A DNA stretch of 28,845 nucleotides from positions 1 to 28,845 of the IMG/VR virus record IMGVR_UViG_3300046468_000223, one strand, 5' to 3'. Both the position numbers and the translations under genes were made by a program. Positions 5,901 to 28,070 of this stretch are shown here, one piece after another. This stretch comes from a virus. Under the pieces are notes generated by a model that saw nothing but the letters and a program-made list of their open reading frames with translations, was not told the origin of the DNA and did no database searches. Position 1 is the stretch's first letter. Each line of letters opens with the position of its first letter.

Positions 5901-8021
5901 ATGGCACAAGTAATATATGAATTTGAATTGCCTGACGGTTCAATTTTAGAGATTGAGGGTGATGAAGGTAAACAGGCTGAAGCTACTGCAAAAGCGAAGG
6001 AATATATTGCTGCGCAACAACCAACACCTTTAAGTAGAAAAGAACGAGCAGAGGACTACCTAAGATCAGCAGCAGGTGGAGGATATATGGGTTTGTCATA
6101 TATACCTGGTGCGGCTGGTGACATAGAACAATTAGGAAAAGCAATACCAGGTAGGTTTGGTAAATTTTTGACAACTCCAATAAGAGAATTAGTTACTGGC
6201 AAAAAAACAGAACCAGCAAAAATATTTCCAACATCTGCTGAAGTTAGAGAAAAGGTAGAAGAGTTTGTACCAGGTTTGAAAGAGGTTGGTGAATATGATC
6301 CACAAACTACAATGGGTGGTTATTTAAAAACTATACCAGAATTTGCAGCTCCTGGTATTTTAGGAAAAACAAAACAAGCAAGAAAGTTTGGTCTTGGTTT
6401 GGGTGCTGCTTCTGGCGGTGTTTATGAAACTGTAGAAAGCGCAACAGGCAGTCCTCTTACAGCGACTGGCATAACACTACCTTTTGCAATAGCTACTGGT
6501 AAGTTGTTTGGTCCATCTACGGCTGCTGGATTATCAGAAAAATCTTTAAAGGGAATAGATAAAGCTGAACTAGATGAAGCAATAAAGTTAGAAAATTTAG
6601 CAAAAACAGAAGGCATAAAGCTTTTACCTGGTGAAACTTTAGATAACAAATTGGTAAACCAATTAACGCAAGATGTATTAAGAAGTGAAAAAGGTGGACC
6701 ATACATATATGAATCTATAAAAGGAAGGCCTGTTGATGCTTTAAATTTAGCTACAAGCAAGGCTGCAAAAATTGCAGATATACCAGAAAGTCAAAGAAGG
6801 GTTTTAGAATCAATACAAAAAACAGCAAAATCAGCTATTACTAGTTCTGAAAAAAGAAGATCGCAGGAAGCATTTAATCAAGGTTATAGACTTTCAAATG
6901 TTGAAACAATAGCACCAGGACAGGTTTTAAATATTATAAAAAACATTGATAATTTAATTGCAGATTCTTCACCTAATAGTTTGAATCAAAGAAAATTAAA
7001 ACAAATAAGAAAAGAACTAATTGTTAAAGAAGGCATAGATGATGGTGTCAAATATACAGTTCCTGTAACTAATATAAATAAGTTAGACTCAACCTTTAAA
7101 ACTTACAGAGATGCCGTACAGGACTCTAGAAAAAATGTTGCGGACCCAAGAAGATTTGTGCAAAAAGATTTAGGTGCAAAATTATTTAACTCAGACGGAT
7201 CTGGTGCTTTAGATGTATTAAAAAGCCAACTAAATACAAATACAAATTATAGAAAAGCCAATCAAGTTTACGAAGATTTAACAAAAAATGTAGTTAATAT
7301 TATAAAAGATAATACTGGTACATTAGCAAAAGAAGGTATAGATTTAAATACAATAGAAAAATTTATTTTTAATTCTGCAAAAGCAGACAGTGTAGATATA
7401 AACAATACATTAAAAACATTAAATGCTGTTAATCCAGAAGCAACAAAACAAATTGCAAATTTATATTTTAGAAATGCAATTAATAACGCTTTTCCAATTG
7501 TTAAACAAGGCGAGGATTTAAGTCAAGGCTTCAAATTAATAGAATCAATTGCAAAAACTGGCAAACAAAGAAATAATTTTTTAACTGTTATAGATAATGT
7601 TGCAGATGCGCACGGAGTAAATAGAAAAGATTTTAAAGTTGGTTTTGAAAATATGATTAATATTTTAGATAGAACTGGTAGAATTTCTAATATTAATAAA
7701 CCTGGATTTGATGTCCAGGGTATTGCGGCAAGGACACTCGCTAAAGATTTGGCCATGATGAAAACTTTTAATCCATTGGTTAGGTTGGCAACAAAGTATG
7801 GAGAATTTAAATCTGCGCGTGCAATGGGTGAGTTAGGAAAAATCATGGCAAACGATGACGCTGTAGCTACTTTAGTTATGCTGGGTAAAACAAATCCACA
7901 ATCAAAACAAGCAATACAATATACCTTAAATATTATAAACAGCGTTTCCCCAACAACTGAAAGATTGCAAAGACAGGAATATTTACAATCTCTTTCTCAA
8001 CCACAGCCTTTACTAGAATAA
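5901..8021 (+). CDS. Large putative ejection/internal virion protein
   Basis: A 706-residue protein that begins with a small beta-hairpin-like module (YEFELPDGSILEIEGDEGKQ) common at the start of phage internal proteins. Next come Gly/Ala-rich, weakly hydrophobic segments at ~55-75 and ~150-210 (AAGGGYMGLSYIPGAAG, FGLGLGAASGGVYETVESA) that could insert into membranes. The rest is long, charged helical sequence up to residue ~700. This composition is typical of podovirus ejection proteins that form a conduit across the envelope. I see no transglycosylase motif. No ribosome binding site is evident before the ATG, so translation is probably coupled to the upstream gene, which ends two bases earlier. 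Confidence 0.8.
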   Translation: MAQVIYEFELPDGSILEIEGDEGKQAEATAKAKEYIAAQQPTPLSRKERAEDYLRSAAGGGYMGLSYIPGAAGDIEQLGKAIPGRFGKFLTTPIRELVTGKKTEPAKIFPTSAEVREKVEEFVPGLKEVGEYDPQTTMGGYLKTIPEFAAPGILGKTKQARKFGLGLGAASGGVYETVESATGSPLTATGITLPFAIATGKLFGPSTAAGLSEKSLKGIDKAELDEAIKLENLAKTEGIKLLPGETLDNKLVNQLTQDVLRSEKGGPYIYESIKGRPVDALNLATSKAAKIADIPESQRRVLESIQKTAKSAITSSEKRRSQEAFNQGYRLSNVETIAPGQVLNIIKNIDNLIADSSPNSLNQRKLKQIRKELIVKEGIDDGVKYTVPVTNINKLDSTFKTYRDAVQDSRKNVADPRRFVQKDLGAKLFNSDGSGALDVLKSQLNTNTNYRKANQVYEDLTKNVVNIIKDNTGTLAKEGIDLNTIEKFIFNSAKADSVDINNTLKTLNAVNPEATKQIANLYFRNAINNAFPIVKQGEDLSQGFKLIESIAKTGKQRNNFLTVIDNVADAHGVNRKDFKVGFENMINILDRTGRISNINKPGFDVQGIAARTLAKDLAMMKTFNPLVRLATKYGEFKSARAMGELGKIMANDDAVATLVMLGKTNPQSKQAIQYTLNIINSVSPTTERLQRQEYLQSLSQPQPLLE

Positions 8022-9056: not shown

Positions 9057-9272
9057 ATGGAAATATTAGAAAAGAATTTTGACATATCAAATACCATAGA
9101 AGTTGACGAACTAGCAGAGAGATGGGGAGTCAGCAAGAAAACAATCGATAATAGAAGGTACAGAGGACAAGGTCCAAGCTATTTTAAGATTGGCGGTAAG
9201 ATTAAATACGATCTTGATGATGTGAAAAGAATGGAAAACGACTCTTATATTTCTGTCCATGGCGCACGCTAA
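9057..9272 (+). CDS. Small excisionase/MerR-type helix-turn-helix regulator
   Basis: A 71-residue protein with a single helix-turn-helix of the HTH_17/excisionase type: EVDELAERWGVSKKTIDNRRYRG (residues ~15-37), followed by the wing-like KIGGKIKYDLDDVKRM. Such proteins are DNA-binding regulators or excisionases. No integrase is visible here, so transcriptional control of the adjacent divergent promoters is the more likely role. It is the first gene of the replication operon. Its last 14 bases overlap the next gene in another frame, which suggests coupled translation. Confidence 0.85.
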   Translation: MEILEKNFDISNTIEVDELAERWGVSKKTIDNRRYRGQGPSYFKIGGKIKYDLDDVKRMENDSYISVHGAR

Positions 9273-9993
9273 ACTCTCACCTTCAGCAGCAAAGATTTGG
9301 ATGGCTTGCCCTGGCATGCCACAACTCTTGGCGAGTATGCAGGTTGAATATAAAGTAGGCATACCAGCAGCGACAGGTACATTAATTCACGAAATGGTTG
9401 AGACATTGCTGAAAGGTAGGCTAAACAACCTTACCTTAGAAGAATACTACTTAGACACAACACATCATGTAGAGGACTTTGATATCACAGTAGACCAAGA
9501 GATGATTAATTGTGCTAACACTTATGTAGATTACATAGACCAAAGAATGATGGACTTGGATGTAGCAAGACCATTGATTGAAGAAAGAGTTAACATGCCA
9601 GAAATACATGCAGACCTATGGGGAACAGCAGATGCAATACTCATTGGTAAAGACATGATAGAGATAATAGATCTTAAATCTGGTAAGTGGGCGGTAGAAG
9701 CAGACAACCCACAAATGCGTATCTATGCACTTGGTGCATTATCAAGATACGGAGATGACTGCACAGTTCAAATGACCATAGTACAACCAAGAGGTTGGCA
9801 CAAAGATGGTCCTATTAGATCATATTCCATATCAGCTATTAACTTAGTTGAATGGGCCTATGAAACTTTAAAGCCAGCTGCTGAAGCTTGCTTTGAGGAA
9901 ATACCCACATACAACTATAGCAAAGACGGATGCCGTTGGTGTAATGCTAAAGATGCGTGTGATACCTATAAACAAAACCAAATGGGAGACTAA
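9259..9993 (+). CDS. DUF2800 / Cas4-RecB-like PD-(D/E)XK nuclease with 4-Cys cluster
   Basis: A 244-residue protein starting with MAHAKLSPSAAKIWMACPG, the typical DUF2800 opening. Nuclease features in order are TGTLIHEMVE (His44/Glu45), GTADAILIG (Asp124) and EIIDLKSGK (Asp138, Lys140). Cys17 together with Cys225, Cys228 and Cys234 (GCRWCNAKDAC) gives the four-cysteine pattern that holds an iron-sulfur cluster in Cas4 and AddB-type nucleases. It probably resects DNA ends for recombination-dependent replication, working with the AAA ATPase and SSB-like protein encoded just downstream. All key residues appear present. It overlaps the upstream HTH gene by 14 bases. Confidence 0.9.
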   Translation: MAHAKLSPSAAKIWMACPGMPQLLASMQVEYKVGIPAATGTLIHEMVETLLKGRLNNLTLEEYYLDTTHHVEDFDITVDQEMINCANTYVDYIDQRMMDLDVARPLIEERVNMPEIHADLWGTADAILIGKDMIEIIDLKSGKWAVEADNPQMRIYALGALSRYGDDCTVQMTIVQPRGWHKDGPIRSYSISAINLVEWAYETLKPAAEACFEEIPTYNYSKDGCRWCNAKDACDTYKQNQMGD

Positions 9994-17707: not shown

Positions 17708-19240
17708 ATGAAATACGGCGTAAAACTAGAAAAAGAACTCATGACCGAACTATGGTCAGGACCAATCAAAGACAACCCAGTAAACTTTGTTAAGTATGTA
17801 TTCCCATGGGGTCAGAAAGACACCCCCCTCGAAGATTTTAAAGGACCAAGGAAGTGGCAGGAAAAAATTTTACGAGAAATGGCAATACACATTGAGCGAA
17901 ACAATGTATTAGATTTGCCAGAGATGTTTAGACTAGCCGTAGCATCAGGTCGTGGTATTGGTAAGTCCGCACTTGTCGCATGGATCATAATATGGATGTT
18001 ATCTACTAGACTTGGTTCTACCATAATCGTAACCGCTAACACCGAGCAACAGCTTAGATCAAGAACATGGGCGGAGTTAGGTAAGTGGCTCACACTATCT
18101 ATTAACTCTCATTGGTTTACCAAGACAGCTACCACGATTAAACCAGCACAATGGTTTGAAGATGCGCTAATAAACGACCTAAAGATTGATACTGGTTATT
18201 ATTACGCGCAGGCACAGTTATGGAGCGAGGAAAACCCAGATGCGTTTGCAGGCATCCACTCATCATACGGCGTATGCTTGATTATGGATGAAGCATCAGG
18301 TATTCCTTCTCCTATTTATTCGGTCAGTGAGGGGTTCTTCTCCGAACCCACGCGCGACCGCTATTGGTTTACTTTCTCCAACCCACGCCGAAACACTGGG
18401 CCATTCTACGACAGCTTTAACTCTAAGCAATCATTCTGGAAGAACGAGCAGATAGACTCGCGCACGGTCGAAGGCACAGACCAAAAGCTCTTTCAAACCA
18501 TGATTGAGCAGTATGGCGAAGATTCCACAGTCGCGCGCGTGGAGGTGATGGGCGAGTTTCCATCCGCGGATGATGATACTGTCATACCTATGTCTTTAGT
18601 CAAAGCAGCAGTCGATAGGGATGTATCTCTTACAGCTAATGCACCTATTATATGGGGATTGGATGTCGCTAGGTTTGGCGGAGATAACTCTGCGCTATGT
18701 GTGAGGCAAGGAAACCATGTGATGAGTATTAAGTCCTTTAAGTCTATGGATTTGATGCAATTATGTGGTGTGATTAAGAATATGTATGACGAATCTACTG
18801 CGATAGAGAAACCACAGGAAATATTGGTAGATGTAATCGGATTGGGCGCAGGCGTGGTGGATAGACTCGCGGAGCAGAACTTACCTGTGCGCGGAATCAA
18901 TGTTGCCGAAGCACCATCAAGCAAGAAAAATTATTTAAACCTACGCGCTGAATTATGGTTTGCGATTAAAGACTGGTTGGTGCAAAGAGATTGCAGGCTT
19001 CCGCAGGACGATGAGTTAGTTGCAGAACTAGCAGCGCCTCTGTATAAATACACTTCGACTGGTAAGATTAAGATAGAGAGTAAAGACGAAATGCGCAAGC
19101 GTGGAATCAAGTCTCCAGACAAGGCGGATGCGCTCGCGCTGACGATGGCATCAAGTGCTGCAAGTTTTGGTGGAAGCACGAGCTTTTTAGGTTATAATTT
19201 CAGACAACCGCTTAAATCAAGAATAATCAGAGTAGGATAA
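17708..19240 (+). CDS. terL: Terminase large subunit (ATPase and nuclease)
   Basis: A 510-residue protein with the complete motor and nuclease. Walker A SGRGIGKS is at ~80-87, Walker B VCLIMDEAS at ~189-197 (Asp194/Glu195), and the coupling region FTFSNPRRNTGPFYDS follows. RNase-H-like nuclease acidic residues are in WGLDVARFGGDNSAL (Asp319), ILVDVIGLGAGV (Asp375) and SPDKADALALT (Asp471/474). It cuts and translocates DNA into proheads through the portal encoded next. Length and motif order are typical. Several stretches use GC-rich codons (around 18340, 18460 and 18530). No ribosome binding site is seen before the ATG, preceded by a T-rich tract. Confidence 0.95.
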   Translation: MKYGVKLEKELMTELWSGPIKDNPVNFVKYVFPWGQKDTPLEDFKGPRKWQEKILREMAIHIERNNVLDLPEMFRLAVASGRGIGKSALVAWIIIWMLSTRLGSTIIVTANTEQQLRSRTWAELGKWLTLSINSHWFTKTATTIKPAQWFEDALINDLKIDTGYYYAQAQLWSEENPDAFAGIHSSYGVCLIMDEASGIPSPIYSVSEGFFSEPTRDRYWFTFSNPRRNTGPFYDSFNSKQSFWKNEQIDSRTVEGTDQKLFQTMIEQYGEDSTVARVEVMGEFPSADDDTVIPMSLVKAAVDRDVSLTANAPIIWGLDVARFGGDNSALCVRQGNHVMSIKSFKSMDLMQLCGVIKNMYDESTAIEKPQEILVDVIGLGAGVVDRLAEQNLPVRGINVAEAPSSKKNYLNLRAELWFAIKDWLVQRDCRLPQDDELVAELAAPLYKYTSTGKIKIESKDEMRKRGIKSPDKADALALTMASSAASFGGSTSFLGYNFRQPLKSRIIRVG

Positions 19241-19243
19241 TTT

Positions 19244-21397
19244 ATGGCAAAGAAATATAACGAAGAAGAAATCATCGCTAAAGTACAAGAAGAAACTGAG
19301 ATGATAGACCTAGTAGGCGTGATTAAATCCGAGATGGATGATGCTAAAGACTTTATACATCAAGTCGGCGCAGAAAGAGCTGAGTCTACAGAATACTACC
19401 TTGGTACAGAGCCAGAAGGAACTAGCTCCTTGCAATCAGAGTTTGTATCTACAGATGTTAGAGAAAGTGTTTTGTTTATGTTGCCATCTATCATGCGTAC
19501 TTTCTTTGGTACTAAAAAGATTGTAGAGTTTGTACCTAAAGGACCAGAAGATATCCAGTTAGCAGAACAACAAACAGATTATATTAACTATCTGATTAGA
19601 GAAAAGAATCCAGGATTCCAAGTTTTGTATGACGTTTTTAAAGATGCTTTAGTTAGAAAGACTGGTTTTGTAAAAGTATTTTGGGATGACAGCGTAAACG
19701 CAACGACACACGAATATAGCAACATAGACCCACAATCCTACCAAGCATTAATCTTAGATAAAAACGTAGAGGTAATAGAAGAATCAGTTACCAACGAAAC
19801 AATCATAACCATGGACCCAATAAGCGGTGAAGAGGTAACGCAAGAAATACCAGCAAGTTATGATCTAACCATTAGAAGATTAAAACCAAAAGACCAAGTA
19901 TGTATTGAGTCTGTACCACCAGAAGAAATATTAATATCAAGACACGCGCGCGATATAGACACAGCTTCTTATGTTGCACACCGCATGATTAAATCTGTGT
20001 CCGACCTAGTAGCTATGGGTTACGACCAAGAAGAGATAGAGCAGTATGCAGGTTATGGCGGTAGCGCACTTGACCCAGAAAGCTACGAAGAACAAGAAGC
20101 AAGAAACCCATTTGACAACATGGTATACCCAGATAGAAACGATGCTGGTGGTAAAGATGTTTTATACGTTGAGCATTACTTATACTATGATTTTGATGGT
20201 GATGGTATTGATGAACGAATCAGAGTCTGCACAGCAGGTAACGGTTTAGAAGTTTTAAACGTAGAACCTTGGGATGAACTACCAATATGTATGTTCTGTC
20301 CTGACCCAGAACCACACACAGCAATAGGATCTTGTCCTGCTGATTACTTAAAACCAATCCAAGCAGCTAAATCACAAATTATGCGTGATACCTTAGATTC
20401 ACTAGGTCATTCTATTTTCCCAAGAATGGGAGTGGTTGAAGGTCAAGTAAATATAGACGATGTACTTAATACAGATATTGGTCAGCCAATTAGAATGAGA
20501 GCGCCAGGAATGGTACAACCATTTGCTGTACCTTTTGTTGGTAAAGAAGCTTTCCCAGTTCTAGGATATTTAGACGAATCCAAAGAAAACAGAACTGGTG
20601 TATCTAAAGCAAGTGCAGGATTAAACGCAGAAGCATTACAATCTACAACTTCCGCAGCTGTAACTGCTACTATGAGTGGTGCGCAAGGTAGAGTAGAACT
20701 TATATGCAGACATTTTGCTGAAGGTGGCTTAAAAGCTATGTTTAAAACAGTAAATAACTTGGTAATCAAGCACCAAAACGCACAAGATGTCTTTAGATTA
20801 AACGGTAAATTTATACCTGTAGACCCAAGATATTGGGACTCAGACAAGGATATGGTAGTCAATGTAGCTATATCTAAGTCATCAGACGAGGAAAAATTCC
20901 AAGTTTTAACAGGCTTAGCATCAAAACAAGAACAAATCATGCAAACACTAGGGCCACAGAATCCTCTAGTGTCAATGCAACAATATGCTAACACCCTAAC
21001 AAGAATGATCGAGCTAGCAGGCTTCCAAGATGCACAATCCTTTGTGAATACAGAAGTTCCGCCCATGCCTCCGCAACCGCAAGAGCCACCTAAACCAGAT
21101 GCAGCAGAAATGCTTGCACAGGCTGAAGCAATGAAGGCACAAGTAAGCGCACAGAAAGCTATGATTGATGCTGAAACAGATAGAATGAAAATCATCATGG
21201 ACGATGACAGACAAAGAGATATAGAAGAAGCACAACTAAGAGTAAAAGCTATGGAGCTACAAGCTAAGTACGGCGCACAAATAAACATTGCAGAAATTAA
21301 TGCGGTTATGGAACGAGATAGAGAAGGAATAAGACAAAATGCAAAAGCTCAAGCTCAAGGATTATTTACAAACAATGGCCCACAACAAAATATTTGA
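19244..21397 (+). CDS. Portal protein (P22-like)
   Basis: A 717-residue protein three bases after terL, with AGGA seven bases before the ATG. Early segments ESTEYYLGTEPEG, STDVRESVLFMLPSIMRTFF and DYINYLIREKNPG followed by FKDALVRKTGFVKVFWDD are typical of large P22-like portals. A YVEHYLYYDFDGDGIDERIR segment and a CPDPEPHTAIGSCPADYLKP region follow. The last ~120 residues are Pro-rich then long helical (QAEAMKAQVSAQKAMIDAET), consistent with the helical barrel that extends into P22-type heads. It forms the dodecameric DNA channel and docks the terminase. Confidence 0.92.
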   Translation: MAKKYNEEEIIAKVQEETEMIDLVGVIKSEMDDAKDFIHQVGAERAESTEYYLGTEPEGTSSLQSEFVSTDVRESVLFMLPSIMRTFFGTKKIVEFVPKGPEDIQLAEQQTDYINYLIREKNPGFQVLYDVFKDALVRKTGFVKVFWDDSVNATTHEYSNIDPQSYQALILDKNVEVIEESVTNETIITMDPISGEEVTQEIPASYDLTIRRLKPKDQVCIESVPPEEILISRHARDIDTASYVAHRMIKSVSDLVAMGYDQEEIEQYAGYGGSALDPESYEEQEARNPFDNMVYPDRNDAGGKDVLYVEHYLYYDFDGDGIDERIRVCTAGNGLEVLNVEPWDELPICMFCPDPEPHTAIGSCPADYLKPIQAAKSQIMRDTLDSLGHSIFPRMGVVEGQVNIDDVLNTDIGQPIRMRAPGMVQPFAVPFVGKEAFPVLGYLDESKENRTGVSKASAGLNAEALQSTTSAAVTATMSGAQGRVELICRHFAEGGLKAMFKTVNNLVIKHQNAQDVFRLNGKFIPVDPRYWDSDKDMVVNVAISKSSDEEKFQVLTGLASKQEQIMQTLGPQNPLVSMQQYANTLTRMIELAGFQDAQSFVNTEVPPMPPQPQEPPKPDAAEMLAQAEAMKAQVSAQKAMIDAETDRMKIIMDDDRQRDIEEAQLRVKAMELQAKYGAQINIAEINAVMERDREGIRQNAKAQAQGLFTNNGPQQNI

Positions 21398-22099: not shown

Positions 22100-22450
22100 A
22101 TGAATGATGTCGTAGTTCTTATAACCGAACTAGGATTTCCTATTGCCGCAGCGCTAGGCCTTGGTGCTTTTGTTTGGAAACTTATCAACAGAATCATTGA
22201 CGGTATGGAGACTAAACTTGATACCGTAGATGATAAAGTCAACACATCCATAAATGCCATGGAAGATCGCCTTGGCACAAAACTAGACACACAACACGGT
22301 ATTCTAGTAGCATTAATAGATAGAGTTAGATCTTTGGATAATGAAATCATTAGACAAGATACTATGATTAAAACAATGCTAGGCGTACCTCAGTTAATTG
22401 ACACTAACAAGATTGCCAAAGCAGGAAGAAAAGATAAAAGGAAGGACTAA
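22100..22450 (+). CDS. Membrane-anchored coiled-coil protein
   Basis: A 116-residue protein. Residues ~3-30 are hydrophobic (VVVLITELGFPIAAALGLGA). A helical, heptad-like region with NTSINAMEDRLGTKLDTQ and a charged C-terminus (KAGRKDKRKD) follow. The layout (N-terminal span, coiled coil) resembles phage holin-accessory or spanin-like proteins, and a second such protein is encoded at 28072. It lies immediately before csgF with a one-base overlap. It could belong to either the lysis or the export module. Confidence 0.75.
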   Translation: MNDVVVLITELGFPIAAALGLGAFVWKLINRIIDGMETKLDTVDDKVNTSINAMEDRLGTKLDTQHGILVALIDRVRSLDNEIIRQDTMIKTMLGVPQLIDTNKIAKAGRKDKRKD

Positions 22451-22974
22451 TGGCAAGTGTGTATAAAAGAAAACTTACAAGAAGAGAAATAGAACAAGAA
22501 GAAGCTGCTAAAACTAGAATAGCTATATGGTGTTGTTTTATGGGTGCAATAATGTTTTTAATGGTTATTGGTCAAAGCTTAAATGCAGACGAGATGGTAC
22601 ATAAGTTTAAGTCGCCATCATTCTCTGGTGTAGGCACATCTGCACATTATCTAACCATAGAGAACCAACAGTTTAATCGTAAGCAAGCGCTTAAAGCAGA
22701 AATAAAAGCATTACAAGAAGAGATAGAAAGAGATAAAGAAAACACCACTCTTGCAAGATTTATAAGAAACCTAGAGTCAAGAATCTATGCACAACTATCA
22801 AGACAACTTGTAGAAAATTTATTTGGTGAAACTCCAAGTGATAGTGGTGTTTTAAGTTTAGAAGGAAATACTATAGAGTATAATGTTGTAGACGGAATTA
22901 TAACTTTAAACATAACTGACTCAGATGGTAATACGACAACTATATCTCTTCCTATCGGTAGCTTTACTTTCTAG
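22450..22974 (+). CDS. csgF: CsgF-family curli assembly protein
   Basis: A 174-residue protein matching CsgF. After a hydrophobic export segment (~24-46, ending SLNA) the mature part starts DEMVHKFKSPSFSGVG, the region that in CsgF plugs into the CsgG pore. Then come TIENQQFNRKQALKAEIKAL, ENTTLARFIRNLESRIYAQL and LEGNTIEYNVVDG, and the protein ends with the beta segment ITLNITDSDGNTTTISLPIG. In bacteria CsgF sits on the outer face of the CsgG nonamer and couples secretion to nucleation of the amyloid. The N-terminal 23 charged residues before the export segment are longer than usual. It has AAGGA before the ATG and overlaps csgG by 50 bases. Confidence 0.88.
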   Translation: MASVYKRKLTRREIEQEEAAKTRIAIWCCFMGAIMFLMVIGQSLNADEMVHKFKSPSFSGVGTSAHYLTIENQQFNRKQALKAEIKALQEEIERDKENTTLARFIRNLESRIYAQLSRQLVENLFGETPSDSGVLSLEGNTIEYNVVDGIITLNITDSDGNTTTISLPIGSFTF

Positions 22975-23746
22975 TTGCGCGTTAATAATAGATCCGTTAG
23001 AAAATAATCTACCTCCAATTCAAAAAATAGAAAAGCCAACGATAGGCTCGTTGCTTGTACCTGAACTTGCAAACATAAAATCAAACAACAAAGTAAAGCC
23101 AGTCGTAGCTATATATCAAGGTTCTTTTACAGACCAAACAGGACAAAGAAGAAGCAATAGTGCTTATGCAACCTTTTCATCTGCGGTAACGCAGGCACCA
23201 GATGCCTACCTGATTAGAGCCTTAAAACACGCAGGCAGTAGTAATAATGGCTTCTTTGATGTGGTTGAGCGTGTTGGTTTAGACAATGTAACCAAAGAGC
23301 GACAAATCATTAGGAGCGCCAGGCAACAAAACAAAGAAAAGCAGAAGTTACCAGATTTATTGTTTGCTGGTTTGATAATGCAAGGTGGCGTGATATCATA
23401 CGAAAGTAATGTAAAGTCTGGGGGTGCAGGCGCTAGGTATTTAGGCATTGGAATGTCTAGGCAATACAAGCAAGACACCGTAACCATATCTTTACGAACT
23501 GTATCTGTAAGTACAGGTAGGGTGTTACTAGAAGTATTAGTAACTAAAACGATATTAAGTGCATCTATCGATCAAGATATATTTCGTTTTATTACTGACA
23601 ATACCGAACTAGTGGAAATAGAAAACGGTTTAGTCAGGAACGAGTCAATCAATATAGCACTACAAACAGCAATAGAAACCGCTGTTTTAGAAACAATTAA
23701 AGAAGGAACAACCAGAGGATATTGGAATATTGATGAGCAAGAATGA
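22925..23746 (+). CDS. csgG: CsgG-family outer-membrane lipoprotein pore
   Basis: A 273-residue protein with a lipoprotein signal: MVIRQLYLFLSVALLSSCAL (lipobox LSSC, Cys18). The family signature YESNVKSGGAGARYLGIG (~159-176) is almost exactly as in bacterial CsgG. The DTVTISLRTVSVSTGRVL strand, TKTILS, and the end TAIETAVLETIKEG with RGYWNID are also present. CsgG assembles as a nonamer, forms a beta-barrel in the outer membrane and exports curli subunits. Length is normal, so the pore should be functional. Near the constriction the segment RSNSAYATFSSAV differs from E. coli at the Tyr and Asn positions. It starts inside csgF and overlaps the next gene by 14 bases. Confidence 0.93.
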   Translation: MVIRQLYLFLSVALLSSCALIIDPLENNLPPIQKIEKPTIGSLLVPELANIKSNNKVKPVVAIYQGSFTDQTGQRRSNSAYATFSSAVTQAPDAYLIRALKHAGSSNNGFFDVVERVGLDNVTKERQIIRSARQQNKEKQKLPDLLFAGLIMQGGVISYESNVKSGGAGARYLGIGMSRQYKQDTVTISLRTVSVSTGRVLLEVLVTKTILSASIDQDIFRFITDNTELVEIENGLVRNESINIALQTAIETAVLETIKEGTTRGYWNIDEQE

Positions 23747-24467
23747 TTTAGGAATAATAAGTTACTACAGCATATTGGGATTAACCCTTGCTGGTTTATC
23801 TGCGTATGCAGCTGACAATGAAATATATGTTGACCAAAGCGGTAACACAGCAAACATTGACTTAGAACAACTTGGTTCAGGTAATATTATTGGTGGTCTA
23901 TTAAGTACGGCAGGCAGTATGACTGCATTAGACCTTGATGGTATAAGTCTAACATTAGACATAAACCAATTAGGTGATACTAACAAATTTTTAGGTGATA
24001 TATACGGTGATTCTGTAACAGGCTTATTTGAGTTTGACGGAGATACTAATACGTTCACTATACAAGCTGATCCTACAAACACCTTTGGTATAGATAACTC
24101 AAACTATAATGTAGATGTAACTGGTAGCACTAACACATTCACACTTGATACAGGAACAACAGCTTTAGCATCTGGTCTTGATTTAGACTGGGTTATCAAC
24201 GGTGACGGCAACACTTTTGATTTTGATATAAACTATGATGGTGCTACTAACTATGTTGATGTAGACGGAGATAGTAATACAGTAAACTTTACAGGAAGCG
24301 GATATGCAGGCGGATATTTTTATCTTGACCAAACAGGCAACAGCAGAACTTTTAATATACAGCAACTAAGTACCCAAGATAATGACTGGCTTAAAATTAT
24401 ATCTAATGGCAATAATGGTACTATTTGCGTCATTCAAAACGACCAGGGTACAAGCACAAGCTGTTGA
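23733..24467 (+). CDS. Curlin-like secreted repeat protein (putative CsgG substrate)
   Basis: A 244-residue protein with an export signal (IISYYSILGLTLAGLSAYAA, cleavage near ADN) and a mature part made of Asn/Gly/Asp/Thr-rich beta repeats. Curli-type x-Q-x-G-x-x-N units are visible (YVDQSGNTAN, LEQLGSGN, INQLGDTN, YLDQTGN). Degenerate GDxN/GSTN units are spaced in between (FDGDTNTFTI, TGSTNTFTLD, NGDGNTFDFD, DGDSNTVNF). This is a beta-solenoid amyloid pattern as in CsgA/CsgB, but longer and more acidic. Two cysteines near the end (TICVIQNDQ and STSC) could form a disulfide. Its position right after csgG marks it as the exported cargo. The last 86 bases overlap the FecR gene. Confidence 0.82.
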   Translation: MSKNDLGIISYYSILGLTLAGLSAYAADNEIYVDQSGNTANIDLEQLGSGNIIGGLLSTAGSMTALDLDGISLTLDINQLGDTNKFLGDIYGDSVTGLFEFDGDTNTFTIQADPTNTFGIDNSNYNVDVTGSTNTFTLDTGTTALASGLDLDWVINGDGNTFDFDINYDGATNYVDVDGDSNTVNFTGSGYAGGYFYLDQTGNSRTFNIQQLSTQDNDWLKIISNGNNGTICVIQNDQGTSTSC

Positions 24468-25497
24468 CGTAGGAAACATATCTGAATTAACTGGCAAAGC
24501 TAGTGTTGTTAGAGATAAACCTTATAGTGCTGAACTAGCATTTAACATCCAACAAAACGATGAAGCCGTAACGACTGATGGTCGTATGGCTATTAGGTTT
24601 ATAGACGATTCACAAGTAAAACTAACCGAACATTCGCAACTTACCATAGATGAATACATCTTTGACCCCAACCCTAGCAAATCTAAAATGGCCATTACCT
24701 TTGGTCTTGGTACGGCTAGGTTTATTACTGGCGGTCTAAACAGGATAGATAAAAACAATATAGATCTTAAAACACCCACAGCAAATATAGCAATTCGTGG
24801 GACTGATTTTACAGTTACCGTAGATGAAATAGGCAGGTCTTTGCTAATACTTTTACCAGATGAATTTGGTAATTCTAGTGGTGAGATATTAGTAACTACA
24901 GCCATGGGTACAGTTACACTAAACAAGCCCTACGAAGCTACAACGGTAGATGTCTTTGAGAAATCACCCAGCTCACCTGTCATCTTAGACCTAACACTAG
25001 ACCTTATAGACAACATGCTTATTGTTAATCCTCCTAAAGAAGAGGTAGTTGCAGAAGAAACAACACAAACCAAAAAGAAAAACATATTAGACTTTGATGG
25101 TTTAGATGAGGACTTTTTAGAAGAAGATTTCCTAGACTCAGAAAAAGAACTAGAGTTTACAGAGTTAGATATAAACTATCTTGATGTAAACTTCTTAGAA
25201 GATTTACTAGATGTCATAGACGCACTACAAGAAATACAACAAGAAGATCAGCTGGCACAAGATGCCACATCTACTAATATTGTTGGTACTAAACTGGGTC
25301 AAGACTTAGGCACCCAAATAACATCTTTTATAACAGGAGAAGTATTAACACTTATGCGTAGCGTGAGTGATACAGCTAGAGTAGATATAGACTCTGCTGG
25401 TAGTTATACTGTTATCTTTATACAAGATGGTGCATCCAATGTTATTAAAATAAATGGTGGTACTGGCAGCACTATCAAAATCACTCAAAGTAATTAA
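24382..25497 (+). CDS. Exported FecR-domain protein
   Basis: A 371-residue protein with a signal peptide (LYLMAIMVLFASFKTTRVQA, mature from ~26) and a FecR domain at ~30-190: GNISELTGKASVVRD, DGRMAIRFIDDSQVKLTEHS, then TPTANIAIRGTDFTVTVDE. FecR domains are periplasmic sensing or ligand-binding modules, and in bacteria they are often encoded next to CHASE2 cyclases, as here. A strongly acidic linker (~230-300, with LDEDFLEEDFLDSEKELEF) follows, then a C-terminal beta part ending NVIKINGG and GSTIKITQSN, which echoes curlin repeats. It starts 86 bases inside the curlin-like gene, in another frame, and ends with a TAATG overlap to the cyclase. Confidence 0.85.
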   Translation: MTGLKLYLMAIMVLFASFKTTRVQAQAVDVGNISELTGKASVVRDKPYSAELAFNIQQNDEAVTTDGRMAIRFIDDSQVKLTEHSQLTIDEYIFDPNPSKSKMAITFGLGTARFITGGLNRIDKNNIDLKTPTANIAIRGTDFTVTVDEIGRSLLILLPDEFGNSSGEILVTTAMGTVTLNKPYEATTVDVFEKSPSSPVILDLTLDLIDNMLIVNPPKEEVVAEETTQTKKKNILDFDGLDEDFLEEDFLDSEKELEFTELDINYLDVNFLEDLLDVIDALQEIQQEDQLAQDATSTNIVGTKLGQDLGTQITSFITGEVLTLMRSVSDTARVDIDSAGSYTVIFIQDGASNVIKINGGTGSTIKITQSN

Positions 25498-27284
25498 TGA
25501 AGCGACTACTATTCACCATACTTATAATACTAGTGTTGCCTGTCTTATATCAGTCAACGCCAACAGAAACATTAAAACTAAAAGTATTTGACTATCTTGT
25601 ACCTACACAAGATCCTTCTGGCTACTTTACTATTCTTAACATAACCGAAGAAGATATAGATACAGAAGGCGGTTGGCCTATACCAAGGCAAAGACTAGGT
25701 GAAATACATAAACAGATTATAGATGCTGGTGCATTAGGTGTAGGTTGGGTTGTTAGTTTTCCGCACCCAGATAGATTTGGTGGTGATGAATTTTTTGCGG
25801 AGTCCTTAAGACATGGTACATCGATTTTGGCTTCATTTGAATACCCAAATGAAATATACCCAAAAACAGTTGGTACAGTCATCAAAGGACCTGATGTTGG
25901 TGGTATGCTTGCAAAGGGTGTAGTACAGAATACTCACAACCTTAGAACTAACTATATACAAGAAGGTATATCTGCTGCACCCACCGATGTTGATAATCTA
26001 GTCAGAAGAATACCCTTACTACTTAAAACACCAGATGGTTATGTTTCTTCTTTTGGTACAGAAGTATTAAAAGCACTAACAGGTGCAAGAACTTATATTA
26101 TAAAAACCAGTGATAATGGAATACAGGAAATATCAGTCAGAGGAATACCACCGATCAAAACAGACAACCTTGGTCGTAAGTGGATTAGTTGGGTAGATAC
26201 ACCACAAACAGATTTACAAGAAATGAATGTTGCTGGTAAGTTTGTATTTCTTGGAATTACCGCACCAGGAATCATGCCACAAATTGCAACTCCAACTGGA
26301 TTATTAGAACCACACAAAATTCAAGCAGCATTATCTGAGTCAATTCTTATAGAAAACTCTCCAAGGATTCCAGAATGGTCATTGGTGGCTGAAATTTTGA
26401 TTTTTGGAATTTTCGTGTCGTTGACATGGCTTGTAATCAATTATCTCGGTGTAATTAAGGGTCTAAGTATCGCTGTAATTTTGCTCTTCACCACAGGCTT
26501 CTTAGAAGCTTTTAGCGTTCAGAAAGGTTATTTGATAGATTTTTCATGGACTTTTATCTCACAAATCATAACTTCTACTATTGCCTTCTATATTAACTAC
26601 AAAAAGCAATATAAATTGCGTCAACAAATTAAAAAACAGTTTGAACATTACTTAGATCCAAGACAAGTAAAACAATTACAAGACAATCCTAGTTTGTTAA
26701 AACTTGGTGGTGAGAAAAAAGAAGCAACATTTTTATTTACAGATGTTAGAGGTTTTACATCTTTATCAGAAAGATTAACTCCAGAAGAAGTAACTGAGAT
26801 TATGAACAAGGCTTTGACCATACAATCAGATGCAGTACAAAAATATGGTGGCATGGTAGATAAGTATATTGGTGATGCAATGATGGCTATATTTAATGCA
26901 CCCATAGATTTAGACGATCATAGAAACAAAGCAGTAGAAACAGCAATAGAAATAACCAAAAACATGAAGGAAGCAGGACTAGGCATAGAAATAGGTATAG
27001 GTATTAATACTGGTGAAGCTGTTATAGGCAACATGGGGAGCGATACTAGGTTTGATTATTCTGCTATTGGTGATTGTGTAAATACAGCAGCAAGACTAGA
27101 ATCAGCAACCAAAGAAGTAGGAAAAGACATATTGATTGGTTATTCTACTGCCATAAATTGTAAATTTAAGTTAAAATTATTAAAACCGATAAGTGTTAAA
27201 GGCAAAAGCCAAAAACTATCGATATATACAATAGACGAGGAAACATTATGCCAAAAGGAAAAGGAACATACGGAAGTAAAGTAG
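25497..27284 (+). CDS. CHASE2-type membrane class III adenylate cyclase
   Basis: A 595-residue protein. TM1 (~4-20), a large periplasmic region (~21-293; CHASE2-like, with FTILNITEEDIDTEGGWPIP and FVFLGITAPGI), then three TM spans (~297-316, 318-338, 343-367), a short coiled linker and a class III cyclase domain (~405-580). Catalytic residues are all in place: metal Asp416 in FLFTDVRGFT and Asp460 in DKYIGDAMMAIF; adenine-selecting Lys456 and Asp526 (SAIGDCVNTAARLE); Asn529 and Arg533 for the transition state. It should make cAMP from ATP in the host cytoplasm in response to a periplasmic cue, probably sensed with the FecR protein. A full-length cyclase is exceptional in a phage. Confidence 0.93.
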   Translation: MKRLLFTILIILVLPVLYQSTPTETLKLKVFDYLVPTQDPSGYFTILNITEEDIDTEGGWPIPRQRLGEIHKQIIDAGALGVGWVVSFPHPDRFGGDEFFAESLRHGTSILASFEYPNEIYPKTVGTVIKGPDVGGMLAKGVVQNTHNLRTNYIQEGISAAPTDVDNLVRRIPLLLKTPDGYVSSFGTEVLKALTGARTYIIKTSDNGIQEISVRGIPPIKTDNLGRKWISWVDTPQTDLQEMNVAGKFVFLGITAPGIMPQIATPTGLLEPHKIQAALSESILIENSPRIPEWSLVAEILIFGIFVSLTWLVINYLGVIKGLSIAVILLFTTGFLEAFSVQKGYLIDFSWTFISQIITSTIAFYINYKKQYKLRQQIKKQFEHYLDPRQVKQLQDNPSLLKLGGEKKEATFLFTDVRGFTSLSERLTPEEVTEIMNKALTIQSDAVQKYGGMVDKYIGDAMMAIFNAPIDLDDHRNKAVETAIEITKNMKEAGLGIEIGIGINTGEAVIGNMGSDTRFDYSAIGDCVNTAARLESATKEVGKDILIGYSTAINCKFKLKLLKPISVKGKSQKLSIYTIDEETLCQKEKEHTEVK

Positions 27285-27325
27285 GTAGACCACCTAAAAA
27301 GAAAACCAAAAAAAATAAAAAATGA
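27248..27325 (+). CDS. 25-residue AT-hook-like microprotein
   Basis: A very short frame lying in the 3' end of the cyclase gene (37-base overlap) and ending ATGA over the holin start. The product MPKGKGTYGSKVGRPPKKKT plus KKNKK contains GRPPKKK, close to an AT-hook core. Proteins starting MPKGKGTYGSK are familiar to me from phage genomes. Translation is supported by the exact ATGA overlap. Function is unknown; DNA binding is plausible. Confidence 0.6.
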   Translation: MPKGKGTYGSKVGRPPKKKTKKNKK

Positions 27326-27702
27326 TTGACAAGCTAATAGGTCCAGTAAGCGACATAGTTAGTAAGCTAGTACCTGACAAGGACTTACAGGCAAAACTAA
27401 ACCATGAACTTAAAACAGAACTACATAAAGCAAATATGGCTCAAGTGGAAATTAATAAAATTGAAGCTGGCCATAAGTCTATATTTGTTAGCGGCTGGCG
27501 GCCATTTGTGGGTTGGACTTGCGGTATTGCTTTGCTTTATCACTTTTTGCTTCAGCCTATTATTATCTTCGCACTCTCAGCATTTGGAATATCTTTTGTA
27601 CTACCATCCTTTGACATGGGATCGCTAATGACTGTATTGATGGGTATGTTAGGACTTGGCGGACTTAGAACATTTGAAAAAACTAAAGGAGTTGCTAGAT
27701 GA
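27322..27702 (+). CDS. Holin (GTA-type 3-TM holin family)
   Basis: A 126-residue protein with a charged helical N-terminus (DKDLQAKLNHELKTELHKAN), then the motif SIFVSGWRPFVGWTCGIALL and hydrophobic spans at ~58-88 and ~92-117. This is characteristic of the GTA_holin_3TM family. It would perforate the inner membrane at lysis to release or activate the endolysin encoded next, which it overlaps by four bases (ATGA). A KTKGVAR tail remains cytoplasmic. Confidence 0.88.
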   Translation: MIDKLIGPVSDIVSKLVPDKDLQAKLNHELKTELHKANMAQVEINKIEAGHKSIFVSGWRPFVGWTCGIALLYHFLLQPIIIFALSAFGISFVLPSFDMGSLMTVLMGMLGLGGLRTFEKTKGVAR

Positions 27703-28070
27703 GTTGGGATAACTTTAAACTAGAAGAATTTGCTTGTAAGCATTGTGGTGAAAACAAAATAGAGCATGAGCTTATAGACAAACTACAAGCGCTTAGAACT
27801 GATTGTGGTTTTCCATTTAAAATAACAAGTGGTTATAGATGTGCTGAACATCCTGTAGAAATAAACAAATCAAAACCAGGCACACACGCTGTTGGTTTAG
27901 CAGCTGATATAGGTGTTAGAGGCAAGCAGGCATTAGAGATTATATCCAAAGCTAGAGACTATGGTTTTACTGGTATTGGAGTTAACCAAAAAGGTGGTGC
28001 TAGGTTTATACACTTAGATATATCTAAAGATTCACAAGGCCGACCAAGACCACATATTTGGAGTTATTAG
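27699..28070 (+). CDS. M15-family peptidase endolysin
   Basis: A 123-residue protein matching the phage Peptidase_M15_3 type: an N-terminal LEEFACKHCG (Cys13, Cys16), KITSGYRCAEHP, then the zinc ligands GTHAVGLAAD (His63, Asp70) and FIHLD (His105). It cleaves peptide cross-links in peptidoglycan (D,D- or L,D-type). No signal peptide is present, so it needs the adjacent holin for access. Length is normal for a single-domain endolysin. Confidence 0.92.
   Translation: MSWDNFKLEEFACKHCGENKIEHELIDKLQALRTDCGFPFKITSGYRCAEHPVEINKSKPGTHAVGLAADIGVRGKQALEIISKARDYGFTGIGVNQKGGARFIHLDISKDSQGRPRPHIWSY

Follow-up and report, generated by a model that had tools for sequence, protein, structure and literature searches.

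A putative mobile curli-type secretion cassette among the late genes of a podophage-like virus

The viral DNA considered here is the IMG/VR record IMGVR_UViG_3300046468_000223 (G000; 28,845 bp, end repeats absent), which we call, at its full length, the window. Sequence comparison leads us to regard its positions 22450 to 27284, together with the gene immediately upstream, as a copy of the mobile type VIII (curli) secretion cassette known from marine phages, here in a podophage-like lineage. On balance, we favor the reading that this mobile late cassette puts amyloid on infected cells and that its FecR-domain protein links the fiber with a membrane cyclase. The curlin-like protein would be exported by the Sec route, exit via the CsgG-CsgF pore, and polymerize on the infected cell; FecR would remain at the envelope, where its curlin-like tail would engage the substrate or the fiber, and would couple the fiber to the cyclase at the CHASE2 domain, so that a cyclic nucleotide would report the state of secretion. 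The likely gain would lie at the cell surface, with sibling cells held together or superinfection blocked (both ideas are published). Fiber export by the cassette is probable and an amyloid coat on infected cells plausible, while signaling from FecR to the cyclase is a tentative proposal. The gene combination is already known; new here are an additional backbone with an SU10-type portal, two integrase-bearing cassette records, and the curlin-like tail of FecR, which offers a concrete and testable connection of the cassette's secretion half with its signaling half.

Gene content of the cassette

The cassette genes of the window lie on the plus strand, as do its terminase, portal, holin, and M15 peptidase genes. 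The genes csgF, csgG, the curlin-like gene, fecR, and the CHASE2 cyclase gene each overlap the following one and, with a coiled-coil membrane protein gene in first place, make up six codirectional genes amid late genes, the portal lying 5' and the holin and M15 peptidase 3'. Reading frames and Pfam and portal matches agree with the initial annotation on the five genes, their coordinates and overlaps, and their position between portal and holin/endolysin. The gene identities are nearly certain, Pfam supporting four of the five genes (all but the window's curlin-like gene). The CsgF homologue (22450 to 22974) matches PF10614 (E = 8.8e-18) and phrog_35372 (2.6e-44), and its match to solved CsgF is weak (residues 5 to 48, E = 0.017). 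The CsgG homologue (22925 to 23746; PF03783, 1.7e-47), a predicted outer-membrane pore lipoprotein, shows by eye the lipobox LLSSC, and solved CsgG chains align with the CsgG profile at E = 7.2e-61 to 4.5e-60. The FecR-domain protein (24382 to 25497; PF04773, 2.2e-9) is presumed to be periplasmic, and the domain was found in all 16 family representatives. The last gene (25497 to 27284) encodes a CHASE2 membrane class III nucleotide cyclase, predicted to be of the adenylate type (PF05226, 6.1e-26; PF00211 [Guanylate_cyc], 1.3e-20). The pairing of an outer-membrane exporter with a membrane cyclase, as first proposed, is thus supported by the CsgG and cyclase profile matches. The PHROGs families matched by CsgF, CsgG, FecR, and the cyclase all come without a function name.

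The exported curlin-repeat-like protein, the presumed CsgG substrate, occupies positions 23733 to 24467 (frame 23730 to 24467, ATG at 23733) and shows repeats visible by eye. Searched at E up to 10, the Pfam profile Curlin_rpt matched 6 of 12 family representatives, the best of them at 8.6e-6, and gave no match in the window's own copy; among the profiles for the five proteins it was the only one to fail there, those for CsgF, CsgG, FecR, CHASE2, and Guanylate_cyc being positive. Furthermore, Q.G..N occurs in all 109 unique phage curlins, and the window protein scores 27.4 with a matrix built solely from 381 repeat windows of bacterial curlins. Its AlphaFold2 model is nearly all beta (predicted local distance difference test [pLDDT], 75.7), and a PDB fold search with this model gave no match at E ≤ 0.001.

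CsgE, CsgC, and CsgD had no Pfam match among the 20 window proteins scanned, in a record that may be incomplete. Wittmers 2022 (PMC9599517; like the other papers, cited here from part of its text) likewise reports CsgE missing, and describes alphaproteobacterial modules without CsgC, CsgD, and CsgE. The lack of the gate protein CsgE would suit an option raised in the same paper, namely, that nutrients or cofactors are taken up through the pore under the control of the other genes. However, import leaves unexplained the curlin-like protein and CsgF, which are present wherever a contig leaves room, and we consider it very improbable.

Spread of the cassette over phage backbones and bacteria

The viral sample comprised 140 distinct contigs from two scans (77 loci, plus the best 80 of 583, which gave 71 new loci, 8 of them repeating contigs from the first scan); they were chosen by CsgG similarity and are hence biased, and presence was counted only where the contig left room. 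On these terms csgF was present in 107 of 107 contigs, the coiled-coil gene in 94 of 94, the curlin-like gene in 125 of 125, fecR in 121 of 121, and the cyclase gene in 63 of 66; one viral contig had no csgG call. On 26 of the 140 contigs the portal, the five genes, the holin, and the M15 peptidase stood together, which makes a chimeric window unlikely.

The five-gene cluster of the initial annotation is present as claimed, but it lacked a sixth member. The gene at 22100 to 22450 (PHROG 18771, 1.9e-15), which we count as part of the cassette because of its presence in every contig with room upstream, encodes a small membrane-anchored protein of 116 amino acids with an N-terminal hydrophobic stretch near residues 4 to 29, the rest being coiled coil by eye; relatives have one or two copies. 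It apparently holds the position named HK ("histidine kinase") in Wittmers 2022, as judged from position and copy number rather than from the paper's own sequences. Contrary to that label, the window's gene shows no kinase catalytic domain: a search with 14 representatives (E up to 1) matched 27 families, and the 25 of these that were listed include no such domain, one representative giving a subthreshold match to the kinase sensor domain ArlS_N (E = 0.057), and we rejected the histidine kinase identity.

The statement that the combination was known from no characterized phage does not hold, and the accompanying suspicion that CsgG-type genes had already been reported in marine phages proved right. 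Wittmers 2022 describes CsgF, CsgG, CsgA/B, FecR, adenylate cyclase, and "histidine kinase" in nine HTVC023P-type podophage genomes, places the set on reexamination also in pelagimyophages, and reports that curli-type cassettes are widespread in ocean phages and expressed in ocean metatranscriptomes; CsgF and CsgG are moreover reported in pelagimyophages and in Melnitz (PMC7029224 and PMC9004378). The published order, "HK," CsgF, CsgG, CsgA/B, FecR, (second curlin), and adenylate cyclase, is that of the window, which differs in its SU10-type portal, in having no match to the HTVC027P terminase, and in the lack of a second curlin gene; its backbone is neither HTVC023P-type nor that of a pelagimyophage. 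Two cultured isolates, HTVC008M (a Pelagibacter phage) and Melnitz (a Methylophilales phage), have in their GenBank records all the window's cassette genes in the same order, the five cassette proteins being 30 to 43% identical to the window's. They are classified under Kyanoviridae, with genomes of 141 to 147 kb, and an extra curlin gene lies between fecR and the cyclase gene. In the Melnitz record (L003, MZ577097.1, 43171 to 59956), two curlin-associated repeat proteins are annotated, and the Melnitz paper calls csgA and csgB missing.

The Melnitz paper also offers a different role for the CsgG-CsgF pore, that of a pinholin or secretin in lysis timing instead of fiber export, arguing from structure models and from synteny with thyX and ssrA. 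The window cassette indeed lies directly 5' of the holin and the M15 peptidase, and cyclase and window-type holin occur together on 48 of the 140 contigs. However, HTVC008M and Melnitz have no annotated lysis gene within the few kilobases past the cassette, the curlin-like gene is never missing where there is room for it, and the argument from absent csgA and csgB conflicts with the two curlin-repeat proteins in that phage's own record. We regard lysis timing as quite improbable, and fiber export as the better reading of the pore.

As to the backbones, among 30 cassette-bearing records 10 (window included) match the window portal, 4 match the HTVC027P terminase (two with no more than 35 to 36% identity), and none matches both; the other 16 match neither, many of these being fragments, whereas G324 and G329 are long and carry an integrase. 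Neither marker was matched on L018 (a 29-kb fragment), L052, and L069, whose cassette proteins are about 63 to 97% identical to the window's (about 63 to 88% for G324 [L069] and G329 [L052]). Since similar cassettes thus sit on differing backbones, one of them with an integrase, the cassette moves and is conserved as one piece, which extends the cross-family transfer already published. G324 (L069/L299/L300, 52 kb) and G329 (L052/L301, 47.6 kb) are both podophage-like, with a tyrosine integrase and an open reading frame of more than 2,200 amino acids, and are possibly temperate carriers of the cassette. On another contig (L045) the cassette genes occur twice, the first copy being incomplete and split over several frames, through either an assembly error or duplication. 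A 1.5-kb unannotated "Salmonella phage" record (OR851715.1), possibly host DNA, has a CsgG with 39% identity to that of the window.

Of 398 bacterial genomes in the sampled phylum, 37 have CsgF, and of 241 in the sampled class, 23 have CsgG matches, 3 of these being strong (E below 1e-60). We examined 41 bacterial loci with flanks of up to about 8 to 10 kb, less at contig ends, leaving out the CsgF places in G003 (a fragment) and G173 (below the cutoff); a profile search of the genome contigs with the CsgG alignment gave only 5 loci from 68 stretches. Three of the 41 (L194, L195, and L298, from metagenome-assembled genomes) are phage contigs as judged by independent genes. Bacterial type VIII secretion, as in Escherichia coli, has CsgG, CsgF, and curlin repeats in common with the window, but phage-type FecR, CHASE2 cyclase, and the coiled-coil gene occurred in none of the 38 bacterial curli loci (37 genomes) within the retrieved flanks. 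The same profiles did detect bacterial CHASE2 cyclases in 30 of 30 alphaproteobacterial loci. A cellular origin of the whole six-gene set was rejected on this ground, the three exceptions carrying independent phage genes, and the result agrees with the statement in Wittmers 2022 that the genes are not in bacterial curli operons.

The FecR tail and the cyclase

The last 30 residues of the window's FecR (342 to 371; positions 25405 to 25494) comprise a curlin-like repeat followed by a second strand ending I-x-I-x-Q. Of 107 unique viral FecR proteins, 74 have the motif Q.G..N among their final 45 residues (shuffling within tails gave a mean of 2.4 and a maximum of 7), while elsewhere it was met in 1 of 107 FecR bodies, 2 of 112 CsgG proteins, and 3 of 20 portals, and not at all in the CsgF, cyclase, coiled-coil, and terminase families. 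A stricter alternating pattern likewise occurs in 74 of 107 tails, where shuffles gave 0.02 on average. With the bacterial-curlin matrix, 75 of 107 tails score beyond the 99th percentile obtained by shuffling, and in 86 of 107 proteins the highest-scoring stretch lies near the C terminus; the median score is 9.6 for FecR and 24.3 for phage curlins, and no other family has a median above -0.2. The motif was noticed before it was tested and the sequences are related, so that these counts cannot be taken as independent events. In HTVC008M and Melnitz the tail exists in degenerate form only, and Q.G..N is absent from all three bacterial FecR proteins beside CHASE2 cyclases that have an intact C terminus, a fourth being cut. 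In the part of Wittmers 2022 cited here there is no mention of the tail, and "C-termin" is absent from its main text. It is possible to hypothesize that the tail binds curlin, for which we see slightly less than an even chance.

A resemblance to one curlin repeat at the extreme C terminus could also mean that FecR acts as fiber anchor or nucleator, analogous to CsgB, with the tail templating curlin at the pore and the cyclase separate or secondary. The three cassettes that lack a cyclase, of which two are nearly identical, all keep the tail, which favors a role at the fiber, and the window has no second curlin gene, unlike HTVC008M and Melnitz. However, the cyclase is kept in 63 of 66 cassettes, so that FecR and cyclase usually go together, and FecR adjoins CHASE2 cyclases in four bacterial genomes without a strong CsgG match (G077 has a weak one, 2.8e-11). 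We judge the CsgB-like role rather unlikely and retain the reading in which FecR links fiber and cyclase. A coupling of the two proteins is supported by their proximity in bacteria, FecR lying within about 1.5 kb in 4 of the 30 alphaproteobacterial CHASE2 loci and near a CHASE2 adenylate cyclase in Campylobacterota clusters (PMC9239204). The latter resemble the window in this respect and differ in having a phosphodiesterase and a TPR protein alongside.

The cyclase itself appears to be intact. We take the functional residues of such enzymes to be two metal-binding Asp, a purine-contacting Lys, a Thr/Ser/Asp position, Asn, and Arg, with Lys plus Ser/Thr presumably conferring adenylate specificity. 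Both Asp residues, Lys, and Arg are present in 97 of 97 aligned rows and Asn in 96 (Ser in Melnitz); the Thr/Ser/Asp position is S in 72, T in 24, and D in 1. The best solved-structure matches of the window enzyme are adenylate cyclases, and we predict it to be of the adenylate type.

Several observations weigh against our reading. The strict repeat pattern occurs in only 6 of 109 phage curlins and therefore describes the tails, not curlins at large; Curlin_rpt matched none of the 16 FecR representatives (E up to 10), the hhalign comparison of the tail with the curlin profile was negative, and the FecR model is poor (pLDDT, 53) with low confidence at the tail. No solved structure resembled FecR at E up to 1. 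FecR and the cyclase need not interact, the sole evidence being their co-occurrence. The authors of the Melnitz paper observed no clumping of their cultures, and the published papers, as far as cited here, contain no experiment showing export, fiber, or nucleotide in these phages; in the literature of open PubMed Central we found no demonstrated function of phage curli-type cassettes.

A further difficulty concerns the receiver of the signal. The family of G001 (a metagenome-assembled genome titled Candidatus Pelagibacter) was sampled with 79 genomes (completeness not stated, and possibly not the window's host). The receptor domain cNMP_binding, the only one searched for, was found in only 4 of these, in frames of at most 246 amino acids in two and of at least 870 in the others, and 12 cassette-bearing phage records, several of which are fragments, gave no match to it. 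The suggestion that infection rewires cAMP-CRP control is thus unsupported for Pelagibacter-type hosts, and the scarcity in host-family genomes and phages turns it into the question of a cyclase signal without a known reader. Guanylate_cyc matched 3 of the 79 genomes, two on phage contigs (G001 C1, which carries an HTVC027P-type terminase, and G288 C11) and one below the cutoff, other cyclase classes being outside this count, as the E. coli control gave no match; CsgF was found in 2 of the 79, again on those two phage contigs. One may imagine a wiring, absent from the sampled bacterial curli loci, in which a curlin-tailed FecR senses phage amyloid or secretion and switches the CHASE2 cyclase, whose signal, in hosts seemingly for the most part devoid of cyclic-nucleotide receptors, leaves via the pore or is read by some phage protein; we hold this specific scheme to be unlikely.

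Late-gene backbone of the window

Upstream of the cassette lie the terminase large subunit (17708 to 19240; phrog_2, 1.1e-47) and the SU10-type portal (19244 to 21397; PF23899, 8.4e-192), and downstream the holin GTA_holin_3TM (27322 to 27702; PF11351, 3.1e-17) and the M15 peptidase, a putative endolysin (27699 to 28070; PF08291, 9.7e-14; phrog_894, endolysin). Among 340 phage records the portal had no match at 60% identity; its nearest relatives were Manatee Spring records and Sinorhizobium phage phiM5 (42 to 44%), followed at lower rank by Methylophilales phage Venkman (35%) and Pelagibacter phage HTVC106P (36%). The promoter scan was at chance level (25 versus 27.0 expected), and the terminator scan found 7 versus 4.3 by chance. 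A 706-amino-acid open reading frame at 5901 to 8021 has only a marginal match to the major head protein family phrog_2522 (E = 0.029), which does not clearly identify it as the capsid gene of this lineage. On the cassette-bearing phage contig L298, a gene of a NifU-like Fe-S assembly family (phrog_8429; 9081 to 9539, minus strand) adjoins the terminase small subunit.

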